Below are positions 1 through 5,636 of a stretch of 5,636 bases of DNA, one piece after another. The stretch lies in assembly GCA_018818505.1 (NCBI GenBank), contig JAHIRR010000175.1:1-5636 (forward strand), given 5' to 3'. Position 1 is the stretch's first letter. Every line of letters begins with the position of its first letter. The position numbers and the translations under genes are program-made. This DNA comes from Candidatus Omnitrophota bacterium (GTDB taxonomy: Bacteria; Omnitrophota; Koll11; Gorgyraeales; Gorgyraeaceae). The notes beneath the pieces are model-generated. The model was given only the letters and a program-made list of their open reading frames with translations. It was not told where the DNA came from and made no database searches.

Positions 1-548
1 CTAAAACCATACACGGCGCCATTTATCATGCTCTGACGGGTATCCTTTCCTAAAACGCCTTTTGGTTTTTCCAGCTTCACCTTTGGTAAAAGCATTGCCT
101 TACTAGAAAGCGCCTCAAGCGAGATCTCAACACCAGGCACAATCACGCCTCCAAGGTACTCCTTTTTTTTATTTACAACATCTATAGTAATAGCTGTGCC
201 AAAATCTACTATAATACAGCCCCCGCCATACAGCTCGTAAGCCGCGCGAGCGTTCACTAATCTGTCCTGGCCTACTTGTTTAGGCCTTTTGTAGAGATTT
301 TTAATCCCACTGTCGACATCCCTGCCTACGACCATGATCTTTCTGTTTAGCGCCCGTTCGACATTCTTGAGTACCTGCGGCACAACGCTTACAATAATGA
401 CCTTTTTGATGTCTTTGCCTAATCTCCTTTGATATGTCGGCCTTAAATTCCTGGCATTGCTCGGGATCCTGAAGCTCTTCTTCAAAACCTTGCCGTCAAA
501 TATACCATTATTAATACTAGTATTCCCTATATCAATCGCTAATAGCAT
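1..548 (-). CDS. coaX: Type III pantothenate kinase CoaX (C-terminal end beyond window)
   Basis: Phosphorylates pantothenate with ATP, the first step of coenzyme A synthesis, in the cytoplasm. The reading frame is open from ATG at 548-546 to the left edge: 182 codons of a family usually about 255 residues long, so roughly the last 70 are missing. Visible ASKHA-type kinase motifs are the N-terminal phosphate loop D6-I-G-N-T10, S54-V-V-P57, the V92-G-Q-D-R-L-V-N-A100 segment holding the family's Asp-Arg pair, the second phosphate motif D115-F-G-T-A119, and Y131-L-G-G-V-I-V-P-G139 followed by I-S-L-E-A-L. These are diagnostic of type III enzymes rather than CoaA or the eukaryotic type. The start is supported by AAGGAG six bases upstream. 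The segment between R27 and S54 is about ten residues shorter than in Bacillus-type CoaX and lacks its usual T-x-D-E stretch. It follows birA after 48 bases that are mostly a palindrome. Identification is firm. Confidence 0.94.
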   Translation of the reverse strand, partial: MLLAIDIGNTSINNGIFDGKVLKKSFRIPSNARNLRPTYQRRLGKDIKKVIIVSVVPQVLKNVERALNRKIMVVGRDVDSGIKNLYKRPKQVGQDRLVNARAAYELYGGGCIIVDFGTAITIDVVNKKKEYLGGVIVPGVEISLEALSSKAMLLPKVKLEKPKGVLGKDTRQSMINGAVYGF

Positions 549-554
549 AATTAT

Positions 555-560
555 CTCCTT
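555..560 (-). promoter_or_regulatory. Shine-Dalgarno sequence of coaX
   Basis: AAGGAG on the minus strand, six bases before the coaX ATG. Its first base is also the last base of the palindrome at 560-599, so a folded hairpin would sit directly against the ribosome binding site. Confidence 0.8.
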
Positions 561-599
561 AACTTTACACTTTAAGGTATTACCTTAAGTGTAAAGTTA
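560..599. repeat. Inverted repeat between birA and coaX, containing the birA stop codon
   Basis: The left arm 560-579 and right arm 581-599 are reverse complements over 19 pairs, with a single extra T in the left arm's T-run (571-573) and one base at the centre. The birA stop codon TAA (599-597) is the outermost part of one arm, and the other arm ends in the first base of the coaX Shine-Dalgarno. No U-run follows the stem in the transcribed direction, so it does not look like an intrinsic terminator. It also does not match the usual BirA operator. It may be an RNA hairpin that affects mRNA processing or coaX translation, a protein-binding site, or a small palindromic insertion; the sequence does not decide between these. 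Confidence 0.85.
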
Positions 600-1556
600 G
601 CGTAACATCACTACATCGCCGGCGAGGACGCGTTCGTTAAAACCAGAATCCAGTCGCAATATAAGGGCTCCGTCCTTATCCACATCTATGGCCTGGCCTG
701 ATATAAGCCTATTATGATAATTTATCTGGACGCGCCTGTCAAGCACTGCGGATAACTTTTTATATTCAGACAAAATGTCGCCTATCTCACCTTTATTGAA
801 TACTTTATAGTACCTATCAAGATTGACTAAAACTGCCTTAACGAATTCCAACCTCGAAACATGGCAATGCCTTTCTTCTGCAATAGATGTAGAGCCATCA
901 GGCAATAGTTCTTTCTTTGTATTTATATTAATGCCGATCCCAGCTATAACAAAATTGACCTTATCTGTCTCGCCATTCAATTCCGTCAATATGCCGCATA
1001 CCTTAAGGCCATTTATAAGAATATCGTTAGGCCACTTAATATATGCGGAAAGCCCCGCTGTTTCCCGCACTGCCTTTGCAACGCTAAGCGCTGAAATAAG
1101 CGTGATCAAAGAGACTTCTCTTGGCAGGATATCCGGCCTTAATATTATTGAAAAATACGCGCCCTTACCCCTTGGCGAAATCCATTTCCGTCCGAGTCTG
1201 CCACGGCCCTTTGTCTGATACTCCGCTGCTACTATTGCGCCCTCTTCCTCGCCAGATGCAGCCAGCTCATGCGCTGCGTCATTAGTGGAAGATACCTCTT
1301 TATAGGAATATATCTTTTTACCTATTATCTCGGTTTCAAGCCCTCGCCTTAACTCGATCGAGCTCAAGACATCTGGAAGCGCTATCAATTTATAGCCAAG
1401 ATGCGGGGACGCTGCAATGTCATACCCTTCTTCACGCAGCTTTTCAATGTGCTTCCATATAGCTGTGCGCGAAACACCAAGCGCCTTGCTCAACTCTTCG
1501 CCCGAGACATAGCCACTTCCCTGTTTCTTAAAAAAATCCAGTATCTTCTCGTCCAT
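597..1556 (-). CDS. birA: Bifunctional biotin-[acetyl-CoA-carboxylase] ligase / biotin-operon repressor BirA
   Basis: Activates biotin with ATP to biotinyl-5'-AMP and transfers it to the lysine of biotin carboxyl carrier domains; BirA proteins with a DNA-binding domain can also repress transcription. The protein has 319 residues, as expected for a two-function BirA. A winged helix-turn-helix occupies about residues 1-60 (recognition helix around S29-R-T-A-I-W-K-H36). The catalytic domain follows: S90-T-N92, the biotinyl-AMP loop G117-R-G-R-L-G-R123, K174-W-P-N-D178, K185 and G206-I-G-I-N210. A small C-terminal domain ends in G-D-V-V-M-L-R. I chose ATG at 1556-1554. The frame can be extended to a TTG at 1577-1575, but that start lies inside the palindrome and adds seven residues outside the conserved domain. 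AGAGGG lies just before the chosen ATG. Repressor function is inferred from the domain; no matching operator is seen in the window. Confidence 0.95.
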   Translation of the reverse strand: MDEKILDFFKKQGSGYVSGEELSKALGVSRTAIWKHIEKLREEGYDIAASPHLGYKLIALPDVLSSIELRRGLETEIIGKKIYSYKEVSSTNDAAHELAASGEEEGAIVAAEYQTKGRGRLGRKWISPRGKGAYFSIILRPDILPREVSLITLISALSVAKAVRETAGLSAYIKWPNDILINGLKVCGILTELNGETDKVNFVIAGIGININTKKELLPDGSTSIAEERHCHVSRLEFVKAVLVNLDRYYKVFNKGEIGDILSEYKKLSAVLDRRVQINYHNRLISGQAIDVDKDGALILRLDSGFNERVLAGDVVMLR

Positions 1557-1560
1557 CCCA

Positions 1561-1566
1561 CCCTCT
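1561..1566 (-). promoter_or_regulatory. Probable Shine-Dalgarno of birA (decides the start)
   Basis: AGAGGG on the minus strand, four bases before ATG 1556-1554, a slightly short spacing. It directly abuts the arm of the palindrome at 1567-1605. It favours the ATG over the upstream TTG at 1577, which has no comparable site. A stronger AAAGGAG (1613-1607) lies inside the last codons of uvrB, 50 bases before the ATG. Confidence 0.6.
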
Positions 1567-1605
1567 AAAGTAGACAAAACAGACAGTGACTGTTTTGTCT
1601 ACTTT
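1567..1605. repeat. Perfect 16-bp inverted repeat between uvrB and birA
   Basis: The arms AAAGTAGACAAAACAG (1567-1582) and CTGTTTTGTCTACTTT (1590-1605) match perfectly around a seven-base loop (1583-1589). The uvrB stop codon TAG (1601-1599) lies inside the right arm, and the birA Shine-Dalgarno begins at the next base after the left arm. There is no U-run after the stem on the transcribed strand, so termination is unlikely. The stem is long enough to fold in mRNA or to bind a dimeric regulator. Confidence 0.9.
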
Positions 1606-3563
1606 TCTCCTTTAAGGTCCTTGATCCTGTCCCGCAATTCCGCGGCGCGTTCGAATTGCAGGTTTCTTGCGCAGAGTTCCATTTCTCTTTGCAGCTCACT
1701 GACCAGACTGCCGACTTCATATTCTTCCTCGTTCTGGCCGGTTATATCAAGAACGACATCCTCTGCCTTTTTAACGGCCTCTATGCCATCCTTTATAGCC
1801 TTCTGTATCGACTTCGGCACGATCTTGTGCTCCTTGTTAAATTCGAGTTGCCTTTTTCTTCGCCTCTCTGTCTCTTGCATGGCCTTTTCCATGGATTTCG
1901 TCACTGTGTCCGCATACATGATCACCTGGCCGTCGATATTTCGCGCAGCCCTGCCCGCTACCTGAATAAGCGCTGTCTGCGACCTCAAAAATCCTTCCTT
2001 ATCAGCGTCTAAAATCGCGACCAATGACACCTCAGGCAGATCCAGGCCTTCGCGCAGCAGATTTATGCCCACCAGGCAATCGAATTTCTGTTTTCTTAAA
2101 TCGCGCAATATCTCAATGCGTTCAATCGTCTCTACCTCAGAATGCAGATACCTGACCTTTAATTTCGCATCCTTTAAATACGCCGTGAGATCCTCTGCCA
2201 TCCTCTTGGTCAGAGTCGTAATAAGCACTCGCTGGCCCTTCCTTGCGCGATCCTTTATATTTTGCACAATATCATCTATCTGGCCATCAGTAGGCTTAAG
2301 TACGATCTCTGGATCAATAAGCCCGGTCGGCCTTATCAATTGTTCGATGACCTGGCTGGATTCCTTTAGTTCATACTCAGACGGCGTAGCTGAAACAAAT
2401 ATCTTTTCATTGACTATATCGGTAAATTCCTCAAAATTCAGCGGCCTATTATCCAGCGCGGACGGAAGCCTGAATCCATAATCAACAAGTGTTTTCTTAC
2501 GCGCCTGGTCTCCCTTGTACATGCCCCTTATTTGCGGCACTGTGACATGTGATTCATCAATAATAGTCAGAAAATCATCTGGAAAATAATCTATAAGACA
2601 ATACGGCTTTGACCCAGGAGAACGGCCGCTCAGATGCCTTGAATAATTTTCTATGCCATTGCAAAAACCCAGCTCCCACAGCATTTCAATGTCATACCGC
2701 GTCCTGGAATTAAGGCGCTGCGCCTCGAGTAATTTATTCTGAGACTTTAATTCCTTGAGCCTTTCCGTTAATTCGACGCGTATTGAAGTGATCGCCTTCT
2801 CTATTCTTTCCTGTGTCGTGACAAAATGCTTCGCAGGATAAATAGCTGCCTTTTCTACCTCCCCTAAAACCTGTCCTGTCAATGGATCTACCTCTATTAT
2901 CTTTTCTATTGTGTCGCCAAAAGAATCCACCCTGAACACTGTTTCCTTATACGCGGGGAATATATCCACAATATCGCCTCTTACCCTGAAACATCCGCGC
3001 GTGAAATCAATATCATTCCGTGAATAGCGTATATTTATAAGCTTTAGAAGAAGAGTATCCCTTTTTATCTTCTGTCCCTTTTCTAAGAATAGCAGCAGTT
3101 TCTGATAATCTTCAGGAGAACCCAGGCCATATATGCACGAGACGCTGGAAACAATGATCACATCCCGGCGCGACATGAGACTACTCGTGGCTGAAAGCCT
3201 GAGCCTGTCGATATTATCGTTTATTGAAGCATCCTTCTCTATATAGGTATCTGTGTGCGGCACATAAGCCTCTGGCTGGTAATAGTCATAGTAGCTCACG
3301 AAATACTCGACTGCGTTATGCGGGAAAAATTCTTTGAACTCAGCATAGAGTTGGGCGGCGAGTGTCTTATTGTGCGATATTACAAGCGTGGGCCTCTGTA
3401 CATCAGCAATGACATTTGCTATTGTAAATGTCTTGCCACTGCCAGTGACGCCCAGAAGGGCCTGGGATCGAGCGCCTTTTTTCAGGCCATGTATAAGCTT
3501 CTCGATAGCCTGCGGCTGATCCCCCTGCGGCTTAAACGAACTTGCAAGTTTAAATTTAGACAT
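1599..3563 (-). CDS. uvrB: Excinuclease ABC subunit B (UvrB)
   Basis: Damage-verifying helicase of nucleotide excision repair. It is loaded by UvrA, probes DNA with its beta-hairpin, and recruits UvrC for incision. The 654-residue length is normal. Domains in order: Walker A G38-V-T-G-S-G-K-T45; the tyrosine-rich beta-hairpin around Y91-Y-D-Y-Y95 through D111; the UvrA-interaction region about 150-250; Walker B D336-E-S-H339; V390-S-A-T-P394; helicase motif with Q534 and G537-R-A-A-R-N542; and the C-terminal UVR domain about 618-652, which contacts UvrC. No key residue is missing. The start gives the family's usual F-x-L...P-x-G-D-Q-P opening (to P17). It follows nadC by 19 bases and has no Shine-Dalgarno near its ATG, which is preceded by U6, so translational coupling to nadC is plausible. 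The stop codon lies within the downstream palindrome. Confidence 0.98.
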
Positions 3564-3598
3564 AAAAAAGGAGTAAAGACGTCTATGGTATTATCTCC
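3564..3598 (-). other. Weak hairpin plus U6 tract just before uvrB
   Basis: On the transcribed strand GGAGATAA (3598-3591) can pair with TTACTCC (3576-3570) with one bulged base, followed directly by six U residues (3569-3564) and the uvrB ATG. The only GGAG near uvrB is thus in a stem, inside the last nadC codons. The stem is only seven pairs with a 14-base loop, so a role as a partial terminator or translation control is speculative. Confidence 0.25.
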
Positions 3599-4425
3599 AA
3601 GGAAAAATCCACAGCTGGAGCTGAGTGGGTAAGCGCACCTATTGAAATCCTGTCAACACCTGTACGTGCAATCTTTGCAACATTTTCCAAGCTAACACCA
3701 CCTGAAACCTCTAGCAAAACCCTTGTCCCTTGTCCCTTGTTCCTTGTTCCTAACCTTGTTGCCCTCCTTGTATCTTCAACCGACATATTGTCCAACATTA
3801 TAATATCAGCGCCTGAGTCCATGGCCTTTCTAAAATCTTTTAGATTGTCGACTTCTACCTCAATGTTTTTGTAATGCTTGTCCTTTGCCCTCTTTATGGC
3901 GTCTTCGATGCTGCACAGAGCCAGGTGATTATCCTTAATAAGGATCTGATCCCATAATCCCATCCGGTGATTACAGCCTCCTGCAACCCTTACGGCATAT
4001 TTTTCTAAGATCCTCAGGCCAGGCAAGGTTTTCCTTGTATCAAATATCTTTGTCTTTTTTGCCTTTTTTACAAACTCGGCTGTGAGCGTGCTGACGCCTG
4101 AGAGCCTGCTAAGAAAATTCAATGCAGTCCTCTCGCACGTCAGGATATTCTTCAGAGAACCTTTTATAGAAGCGATTTTCTTACCCTTTTTAACTACAGC
4201 GCCATCATTATAAATCGATCTAAAAATTATCCTTTCGTCCAGCACAGTAAATACCCATTTTGCAACATCTACGCCACAGAGTACACACTCTTCTTTGGCC
4301 ACAATGTCAGCCAGAACTATCATGTCTTTCTCAAAAATCGCTCCAGAGGTGATATCGCCACCACCTACATCCTCACCCAAGGCAGCCATTATTATTGGGA
4401 GGGCCTTTTCTCTTGCGAGTTTCAT
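3583..4425 (-). CDS. nadC: Nicotinate-nucleotide pyrophosphorylase, decarboxylating (quinolinate phosphoribosyltransferase)
   Basis: Converts quinolinate and PRPP to nicotinate mononucleotide, CO2 and pyrophosphate, the last step of the de novo branch into NAD synthesis. The 280-residue length is normal. The N-terminal domain has E18-D-V-G-G-G-D-I-T26. The barrel contains R99 and N103 in the [10 protein letters not shown] stretch, D129-T-R-K-T133, N152-H-R154, K164-D-N-H167, E189-V-E-V-D193, L211-D-N-M214 and S241-G-G243, matching the substrate and phosphate-binding positions of the family. ATG at 4425 is preceded by GGGAG nine bases upstream. Residues about 223-235 are encoded by a heptanucleotide tandem repeat and read [13 protein letters not shown], unlike the usual helix-loop there and a few residues longer. 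The active-site strands on both sides are intact, so activity is probably kept. No nadA or nadB is seen in the window. Confidence 0.97.
3720..3747. repeat. Heptanucleotide tandem repeat (CCCTTGT) inside nadC
   Basis: Three exact CCCTTGT units (3720-3740) are followed by TCCTTGT (3741-3747). Degenerate copies continue to about 3771 (CCTTGTT at 3754-3760, CTCCTTGT at 3764-3771). On the coding strand the unit is ACAAGGG. Seven is not a multiple of three, so successive units are read in different frames, which gives the low-complexity [10 protein letters not shown] stretch. The array falls between the conserved L-D-N-M and L-E-V-S-G-G strands of NadC. The same heptamer recurs in valS. Confidence 0.85.
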
Positions 4426-4434
4426 GATATTTAA

Positions 4435-4439
4435 CTCCC
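4435..4439 (-). promoter_or_regulatory. Shine-Dalgarno sequence of nadC
   Basis: GGGAG on the minus strand, nine bases before ATG 4425-4423. Its first G (4439) is the terminal base of the inverted repeat at 4439-4504, so folding of that repeat could affect access to the site. Confidence 0.7.
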
Positions 4440-4504
4440 GCGAATTATCGCGAATCTAACGCTGATATTCGCGAATATTCGCGTTGGATTTGCGAGTATT
4501 CGCG
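4439..4504. repeat. 66-bp compound palindrome between valS and nadC, six copies of CGCGAAT/ATTCGCG
   Basis: The outer arms 4439-4462 and 4481-4504 are inverted repeats matching at 20 of 24 positions. Two of the four mismatches would be G-U pairs in a plus-strand RNA but A-C in the operon transcript. The interior holds a perfect 14-base palindrome at 4465-4478. The heptamer CGCGAAT occurs three times on the plus strand (4439, 4449, 4470) and its complement ATTCGCG three times (4467, 4477, 4498). It fills most of the 90-base gap and starts 11 bases after the valS stop. No U-run follows, so it is not a standard terminator. It resembles a REP-like or miniature palindromic element, or a cluster of binding sites. 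Confidence 0.85.
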
Positions 4505-4515
4505 TTTAAAAAGTT

Positions 4516-5636
4516 TCATAATGCCTTTAGAGTCTCTTTTAGCCTCTTTATCTGTTCTTTTAGTTTTGAACTCTTTTCTTTCTCCTGATTTACTATTTTT
4601 TCAGGGGCCTTTTTAACAAAATTTTTATCCTTTAACCTTTTCTCAGTAAATCCCGACTGTCTCTCAAGCTCTTCTCTTTTTTTGTTAAGCCTTTTCTTTT
4701 CAGCATCAAGGTCTATAATACCTTTTAGCGGCACAAATATATTAAAATCCTCTAATACTGCTGTAGCGCAGCCCTCAGGTTTTTTCATGTCCTCATCTAT
4801 TACCAGATCCTCTAATCGAGCGAGGTTCTTTATGTAGTCAATGCCTCCGTTTAATTTACCTTCCGCGCCTTTTTTTAAAGGTGCCAGGTACACTGTAAAT
4901 CTTTTCGTATGCGGAATATTCATATCAGCGCGTATATTTCTTATGCTCACGATAATGCTTTTTATGATCTCGACGCTGCACTCGATATCCTTTTTAATCG
5001 TCTTTTTATCTGCGATAGGCCATTTCTCTGTGATTATGCTTTCTCTTTCCTTTATGTTCTGCCACACAGCCTCTGTCACAAACGGCATAAATGGATGCAA
5101 AAGCCTCAATGAATCCTCAAGGACGCGCATTAAAACTTCCCCAGCAACCACACCCTTGTCACTTGTCACTTGTCCCTTGTCACTTATAAGTGGTTTTACC
5201 ATCTCCACATACCAATCGCAGTAATCATGCCAGAAAAAGTCATACACAAGTGATTCTGCCTCATTGAATCTGTACTGCTCAAGCGACCTTGTCACAGCCT
5301 CGATCGTCTTGTTGAGTCGACTCAGTATCCACTTATCTGCCAAACTCAAATCTCTCCCTGTCCAGACGCGGTGTCCGGACGCGGTGTCCAGACGCGGTGT
5401 CCGGACACCGCGTCCGGACAGGTTCATCAACACAAACCGCGACGCGTTCCAGATCTTGTTCGCGAAGTTTCTGCCGATCTCGAACTTTTCCTTAGCGAGA
5501 AAAACATCCTGGCCCGCCGCTGTTATGGCTATCATACTGTATCTCAATGCATCTGCGCCGAATTCACTGATTATATCTATGGGATCTATGATATTGCCAA
5601 GCGATTTTGACATCTTCTTGCCTGTAAGATCCCTCA
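4516..5636 (-). CDS. valS: Valyl-tRNA synthetase ValS, C-terminal part (N-terminus beyond window)
   Basis: Charges tRNA-Val with valine. The frame is open through the right edge: 372 codons here, and a family of about 880 residues implies some 500 N-terminal residues (including the HIGH motif and editing domain) lie outside. The class I K-M-S-K-S motif is at about 5616-5602, followed by G-A-D-A-L-R and the R-N-F-A-N-K-I-W-N-A-S-R-F segment. Next come the anticodon-binding helical domain (L-S-L-A-D-K-W-I, Y-D-F-F-W-H-D-Y-C-D-W-Y, L-H-P-F-M-P-F-V-T-E) and the lysine/glutamate-rich C-terminal coiled coil typical of ValRS (last ~65 residues). An ATG at 5613 is the Met of K-M-S-K-S, not a start. 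Two loops contain repeat-encoded residues: about 22 after M-N-L (5422-5357) and S-D-K-G-Q-V-T-S-D-K-G (5187-5153). The frame remains intact, so the gene is likely functional. Confidence 0.97.
   Translation of the reverse strand, partial: RDLTGKKMSKSLGNIIDPIDIISEFGADALRYSMIAITAAGQDVFLAKEKFEIGRNFANKIWNASRFVLMNLSGRGVRTPRLDTASGHRVWTGRDLSLADKWILSRLNKTIEAVTRSLEQYRFNEAESLVYDFFWHDYCDWYVEMVKPLISDKGQVTSDKGVVAGEVLMRVLEDSLRLLHPFMPFVTEAVWQNIKERESIITEKWPIADKKTIKKDIECSVEIIKSIIVSIRNIRADMNIPHTKRFTVYLAPLKKGAEGKLNGGIDYIKNLARLEDLVIDEDMKKPEGCATAVLEDFNIFVPLKGIIDLDAEKKRLNKKREELERQSGFTEKRLKDKNFVKKAPEKIVNQEKEKSSKLKEQIKRLKETLKAL
5153..5187. repeat. Heptanucleotide tandem repeat (CMCTTGT) inside valS
   Basis: Five consecutive seven-base units: CCCTTGT, CACTTGT, CACTTGT, CCCTTGT and the variant CACTTAT. 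On the coding strand they are ACAAGGG/ACAAGTG and encode S-D-K-G-Q-V-T-S-D-K-G, between the anticodon-domain helices ending in E-M-V-K-P and starting V-L-M-R-V-L-E-D. The unit and its orientation relative to the gene are the same as in nadC. Confidence 0.87.
5357..5422. repeat. 66-bp in-frame palindromic element of 13-base units inside valS
   Basis: Units GTCCAGACGCGGT (5360), GTCCGGACGCGGT (5373) and GTCCAGACGCGGT (5386) run head to tail, then the fourth (5399) turns into the complement (GTCCGGACACCGC). This produces a perfect 24-base palindrome at 5391-5414. The ends 5357-5371 and 5408-5422 are 15-base inverted repeats with one mismatch, which is a G-U pair in the valS mRNA. Composition is 48 of 66 G or C, far above the flanking gene. 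At 66 bases it is a multiple of three and has no stop, encoding roughly S-G-R-G-V-R-T-P-R-L-D-T-A-S-G-H-R-V-W-T. This resembles in concept the palindromic elements found inside Rickettsia genes, though no sequence kinship is claimed. Confidence 0.9.

Follow-up and report, generated by a model that had tools for sequence, protein, structure and literature searches.

Palindromic DNA that lies in frame inside conserved protein genes, with the protein apparently still working, is documented for the Rickettsia palindromic elements (RPEs), which on the account of PMC2229807 are 105-146 bp long, belong to dispersed multi-copy families and are inserted in 19 reading frames. The intragenic REPs, GTAG- or CGTC-tagged hairpins found in ORFs, are a second example: over half of the inserts described are dimers or groups, of 20-30 residues, the targets include tRNA synthetases of X. 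oryzae, E. lithoralis and S. alaskensis, and the genome with the largest number of GTAG cases is that of Opitutus terrae, of the PVC group (PMC3733652). The CGTC-type REPs of that report have a stem of 8-9 bp starting with A-T pairs and a loop of 4-5 bp. Bacterial heptameric tandem repeats are short dispersed units of a length not divisible by 3, mostly intergenic and G-rich (PMC4692102), and inverted repeats inside the essential protein genes of Nematomorpha mitochondria are reported to be gained and lost between species, with perfect repeats of up to 284 bp scattered in the genes and apparently maintained (PMC6649704). In-frame repeat insertions in bacterial proteins are already known case by case, and what we would add is repeat-driven turnover of a loop across a clade; among the top-ranked open-licence literature in PMC, we recognised no title describing the ValRS loop of Omnitrophota.

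We analysed a stretch of 5,636 nt from Candidatus Omnitrophota bacterium (GCA_018818505.1, contig JAHIRR010000175.1, forward strand 1-5,636), hereafter the window. Its ORF list places coaX, birA, uvrB, nadC and the C-terminal part of valS all on the minus strand; the translated ORFs are presumably those of coaX, birA and uvrB for the first three, and nadC was named by a PDB match. The best-matching ValRS proteins carrying an organism name are mostly from Candidatus Omnitrophica/Omnitrophota, among the matches listed. Within the 372-residue partial ValRS the 66-bp element is read between NASRFVLMN and RDLSLADKWI, which agrees with the initial annotation, where it was put between the N-A-S-R-F-V-L-M-N and L-S-L-A-D-K-W-I blocks.

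Table 1. Positions of the repeat features and of valS in the window.
Feature	Position	Strand	Remarks
valS (valine--tRNA ligase), C-terminal 372 codons	4516..5634	-	open at window end; named from ORF, homologues and solved ValRS 4xkz and 1gax
66-bp hairpin element, five GTCCRGAC palindromes, 5-bp spacers, 73% GC	5357..5422		encodes L72-G93 of ValRS, minus strand
Three exact 13-bp direct units GTCCRGACGCGGT, variable base A, G, A	5360..5398	+	
Inverted 13-bp unit, exact	5407..5419	-	
24-bp palindrome, perfect	5391..5414		read from sequence
7-bp tandem array (CTTGTCA/C) at second variable valS site, SDKGQVTSDKG	5155..5185		in frame; TRF; length entropy 2.71 bits
7-bp tandem array (CCCTTGT) in frame in nadC	3720..3751		TRF; direct-repeat family D2 with the valS array
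66-nt palindromic hairpin between valS and nadC, CGCGAAT-type internal repeats	4439..4504		z -4.6 for 4430-4512
Near-perfect hairpin between birA and coaX	about 560-599		z -8.1 for 549-603
Near-perfect hairpin between uvrB and birA	1567-1605		z -7.2 for 1556-1612

The anatomy of the element is that of repeat DNA. The 13-base tandem units that had been read from the sequence are present as three exact direct copies and an inverted one, TRF agreeing (period 13, 4.7 copies, score 87), and a fourth direct unit merges into the palindrome centre. The 8-bp GTCCRGAC palindromes follow one another every 13 bp, separated by GCGGT three times and then by its inverse ACCGC, and the ends of the element read CCTGTCC...GGACAGG. 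The perfect 24-base internal palindrome, the 66-bp length, the 73% GC (44% for the window) and a frame without stop that stays open through the element were likewise borne out, whereas the 15-base terminal inverted repeats do exist but are inexact, 14 of 15 bases matching (A/G). A 13-mer search allowing at most 3 mismatches gave 9 matches in the window where 0.95 were expected, a count reached in 0 of 200 shuffles; eight of them fall within the element or on its border, and no copy of the element was found elsewhere within the window. The DNA folds into one hairpin (z -7.2 alone, -7.4 with flanks; 0/200 shuffles equal in each), and so does the RNA of the valS strand (z -4.9; 0/200). A unit of 13 bp is not divisible by 3, which moves the reading frame from each unit to the next; the peptide consequently contains no repeated unit, and selection on a repeated peptide cannot have made the repetition. 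The repetition is a property of the DNA and not of the peptide, and in the 7-bp arrays, whose unit is likewise not divisible by 3, it is also of the DNA level. By the same kind of reasoning we discarded phase variation of valS by unit number, since the gain or loss of a single unit of 13 or 7 bp would throw an essential gene out of frame.

Set against the described systems, the element behaves like RPEs and intragenic REPs, a likeness that we do not extend to membership. It shares with the RPEs a palindrome that is read in frame within a conserved gene for a protein, but at 66 bp it is outside the 105-146 bp range, only one copy was seen, it is tandem inside, and the native loop is gone instead of being kept. 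The finding of different REPs at about the same recB site in two Xanthomonas, as related in PMC3733652, resembles the hotspot formed by the ValRS loop. No GTAG tag stands beside either end of the element on either strand (reading 5340-5440). Paired GTCCRGAC copies could give stems of 8 bp around loops of 5 bp, but these would not start with A-T pairs and CGTC/TGTC lies inside the stem, which distinguishes them from CGTC-type REPs. The terminal inverted repeats recall MITEs, with 14 of the 15 bases at the ends matching and, over the whole element, arms of 32 nt that are 88% complementary; no clear target-site duplication was read in the flanks, TCTCTC and TTCATC. The window resembles the heptameric repeat systems in its two 7-bp arrays, whereas the unit of the valS element is 13 bp long and one of its copies is inverted. 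Unlike the scattered palindromes of Nematomorpha, the repeats considered here have one loop as their main target, and the sequence there turns over.

An AlphaFold2 model of the partial ValRS, for which 35 sequences were aligned, has a mean pLDDT of 84.9 and places the element residues between helices 48-72 and 98-119, early in the predicted anticodon-binding helical domain. The 10-residue block means of pLDDT are 70 and 56 at the element and 86-97 in the flanking helices; in the model, the element-encoded residues are thus a low-confidence loop between two confidently predicted helices. The second variable site is modelled as a helix-helix turn, between helices 123-151 and 159-179. The expectation that this is a ValRS loop of variable length in the family was confirmed by the predicted structure and by the comparison of loops below. 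It had also been supposed that the element was inserted in frame, and as a clean insertion into an intact loop this did not hold: once the 22 element residues are removed the window loop keeps 10 residues, and the shortest of 234 loops, among the matches listed, has 20. The element therefore supplies the loop, and a clean 66-bp insertion is ruled out. It stands in place of the native ValRS loop, either because native residues were lost after insertion or because native DNA was overwritten.

We searched for further copies. An exact search of genome contigs with a 21-mer spanning two units, which a single-unit relative would escape, found one stretch, in Streptomyces, taken as chance in GC-rich DNA, and a degenerate 24-mer found one GC-rich viral contig without a tandem array. 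A distant blastn search of plasmids with the element returned 34 records, 28 of them Streptomyces, none covering 80% of it among the matches listed; the best of those, in S. clavuligerus, is nominally significant (77% coverage, 83% identity, E 8e-4), has the look of a GC-rich hairpin lacking tandem units of 13 bp, and is in our judgement convergent. Phage records gave one match only, of 21 bases (E 6), and a cyclic-peptide protein search one weak match (E 1.8; proteins of about 107-341 residues, 7998 candidates scored). Two distant valS genes in viral contigs (49% and 44% identity) have ordinary loops. No convincing second copy was thus found in genome contigs, viral contigs, plasmids, phages or proteins, and the 66-bp array may be unique to its valS site. 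These searches do not support a widespread family, nor the mini-element of another lineage that had been proposed. The earlier interpretation is partly supported: a DNA repeat read in frame is tolerated in the loop, as it held in kind, but not as a clean insertion, and the searches run do not support membership of a family.

The comparison of loops was based on the best 120 of 7021 and the best 120 of 7998 matches, giving 235 different ValRS in addition to the window; 234 loops were analysed, two fragments without the left anchor being left out. In a FastTree phylogeny of the 234 sequences, midpoint-rooted and with the two variable sites removed, 77 sequences at least 60% identical to the window and one 59% fragment form a clade (support 1.0). 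Among the matches listed, a DLC motif is present in 96 of the 150 distinct loops outside this clade, the loops with the motif typically having 25-26 residues, and in none of the 76 distinct loops inside it, where length ranges from 20 to 35 residues (median 24; 78 sequences). The entropy of spacer length in these 78 sequences is 3.44 bits for the element loop and 2.71 for the second site, and at most 0.68 bits for the other spacers between conserved anchors of the C-terminal part; judged from these sequences, the element loop is the most variable in length within the C-terminal ValRS of the clade. In the outgroup its length entropy of 2.38 is matched by another spacer at 2.40, so that a length hotspot is not unique to the clade.

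Sequence turnover at the loop is high. With both variable sites set aside, the window and its sister P0155 have 95.2% identity in 315 columns, and their loops (LSGRGVRTPRLDTASGHRVWTGRD and VQKAEAEPRLFSKSRGSASAF) are unrelated. The second site is shared by the two, though diverged (GDKGQGTRDKG in P0155), and hence the element loop has changed faster here. The loops of the next-closest protein among the matches listed, P0158 (TSAQAHKRTSAQEKN), and of P0152 (IGLTTPTCPGNGPSAVPGTGRGGM), P0010 (LFEVKPRTMAITVRGLTSNM), P0005 (PSPLPSPQWGEGWVRG), P0133 (EQRTEGVEHRAESIEQRAEEK) and P0007 (LLRQGYGGQAG) are examples from other relatives, and one sequence, SNFASCPAGQLAKLDR, is common to P0139 and P0141-P0143. 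For clade pairs that are 95-100% identical elsewhere (13 pairs) the median loop identity is 0.67; it is 0.36 at 90-95% (43 pairs), where shuffled loops give 0.23, and 0.31 at 80-85% (151 pairs). The outgroup pairs have medians of 0.67 at 90-95% (only 4 pairs), 0.88 at 85-90% (9) and 0.78 at 80-85% (27).

The peptide of the window loop is absent from the other 233 loops listed. The relatives do not conserve the same residues, even P0155 being without them. This bears on two further explanations. Selection might have kept the hairpin, if folded mRNA slows translation from one domain to the next, or the peptide, if it contacts tRNA. Such a function would be in keeping with the strong hairpin formed by coding-strand RNA (z -4.9) and with a position early in the anticodon-binding helical domain; neither hairpin nor peptide is kept in the nearest relatives, however, P0158, the second-closest listed, having another loop without palindrome signal (p 0.94), and no Rfam family matches the window at the gathering threshold, which makes this the least probable of the explanations we weighed. 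An array or palindrome made or mis-sized by assembly is also very improbable: hairpin arrays are error-prone and the window peptide occurs in no other protein among the matches listed, but the frame is open through the element, where an artefact would often break it, and the loop length is within the range of the relatives.

The loops of the relatives were judged from peptides, not DNA. A palindrome test took the longest inverted repeat that any codon choice could write for each loop peptide, and a heptamer test how well a 7-bp array could encode it, both against shuffles; p<=0.01 means that none of 120 shuffles was as good. The comparison between groups is the only guard against the multiplicity of loops, and the counts include related sequences that are not independent. 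Among the matches listed, 13 of 76 distinct clade loops are palindrome-compatible at p<=0.01, compared with 2 of 150 outside (Fisher test, 1.9e-5) and with 0 of the 96 DLC loops, and 18 of 76 pass either test, compared with 6 of 150 (1.4e-5). The heptamer test alone barely separates the groups (5/76 and 5/150). In the palindrome test the loops of P0155, P0152, P0161 and P0163 beat all 1500 shuffles of a longer run, and that of P0162 was weaker (34/1500). The window's own loop peptide scores only p 0.04 (113/1500 shuffles in the longer run) though its DNA is certainly palindromic; the peptide test therefore misses GC-rich cases. Against plasmid records, the P0153 loop peptide gave three weak matches (E 0.7 to 5), not significant alone. 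The DNA at two of them is a strong hairpin, one at the edge of an annotated gene and one outside annotated genes, which fits translated REP-like DNA and by itself proves nothing.

These tests also bear on whether the loop is simply a fast-evolving, low-complexity one subject to codon-level drift, the repeats of the window being coincidental. Such a loop would account for the 58 of 76 clade loops that pass neither test at 0.01, and for a window peptide that is unexceptional against shuffles. It does not account for a DNA repeat in the window that is far beyond chance and blind to the frame, for the enrichment of palindrome compatibility in the clade (13/76 against 2/150) or for length changes that are large, and we regard it as very improbable.

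We favour, with a probability of about 0.6, the explanation that the 66 bp are repeat DNA which the protein tolerates as a loop and whose sequence was not moulded by what the protein does, and that they arose by arrival of a seed, slippage and disappearance of the native loop. First, a short hairpin unit, of a kind dispersed elsewhere in the window, would have landed in the ValRS loop; replication slippage and a template switch would then have produced the 13-bp direct units and the inverted one; and the native loop residues would have become dispensable and been lost. The survivors would be those variants that are in frame, contain no stop and give a loop about 20-35 residues long. We infer this order of events, the arrival of the seed from elsewhere and survivorship as the sole selection on an otherwise neutral loop; the explanation as a whole is supported by an anatomy beyond chance, the frame-blind unit, the loop position, the length entropy, the contrast with P0155, the enrichment in palindrome-compatible loops, the other hairpins and arrays of the window, and a step of 7 residues between P0130 and P0133. 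The heptamer-like loops of these two proteins, which are 93% identical, differ by exactly 7 residues, or three 7-bp units, as fits slippage under frame selection. The step of seed arrival is weakened by the lack of a convincing second copy in the searches. It also counts against the explanation that neither an empty site nor a target duplication can be seen, that the loops of relatives are judged from peptides, that 58 of 76 clade loops pass neither peptide test at 0.01, and that the heptamer test by itself hardly tells the groups apart.

The main rival dispenses with the seed. Native loop DNA may have grown in place into an array, starting from a quasi-palindrome present by chance and proceeding by slippage and template switching, and the hotspot would then reflect weak constraint alone. 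The searches run found no second copy, the tandem and inverted arrangement is a product of slippage and template switching, the P0130/P0133 step fits slippage, the native residues are gone, and template switching has been proposed for coding palindromes in the report on Nematomorpha (PMC6649704). However, 73% GC in surroundings of 44% would be hard to reach from native sequence, and some loop families (SNFASCPAGQLAKLDR; KP..G) are common to unrelated clade proteins, of which shared descent could explain a part. Growth in place alone thus seems to us possible but rather unlikely.

What extends beyond the window is the site: on the favoured explanation, the loop of the clade would have been overwritten repeatedly by sequences that differ from one another, and many of these could be encoded by short tandem arrays or hairpin palindromes. 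At even odds, we would go further and propose that the clade gave up the DLC-type loop and that the position became a pad on which one short-repeat family gives way to another, unrelated one within about 5% protein divergence; an essential enzyme would then have a loop that is bounded in length and is continually rewritten by repeat DNA, not by codon-level selection. Repeats in DNA are apparently able to furnish a part of an enzyme that the cell cannot do without. A loop that bears differing repeat-like sequences in close relatives is a natural series for measuring the speed at which repeat DNA becomes protein; it could show the loop lengths that an essential enzyme tolerates, and tell repeats that move from repeats that grow where they lie. 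It is also a warning that such peptide stretches in metagenome proteins can be translated repeats and not domains.

A genome as rich in repeats as these 5.6 kb suggest could supply seeds for the element. The array in nadC adds about 6 residues in an alignment with solved NadC proteins. The hairpin between valS and nadC has the same architecture and length as the valS element, but is AT-richer, and the one between uvrB and birA overlaps both the uvrB end and the TTG annotated as the start of birA. Among the relatives, an ad hoc pattern search found K-P ... G-(F/L)-(A/T) to be common to six clade loops (P0010, P0161, P0176, P0179, P0180 and P0182), which perhaps form one palindrome family. Lastly, P0155 has a third repeat-like stretch, EGQGTQHQSLRSGARQARDKGQG, just before VTVATTRPETMLG; the matching part of the window's valS is beyond the window end, and in P0158 the stretch is shorter (EAQGSGLEAQG).
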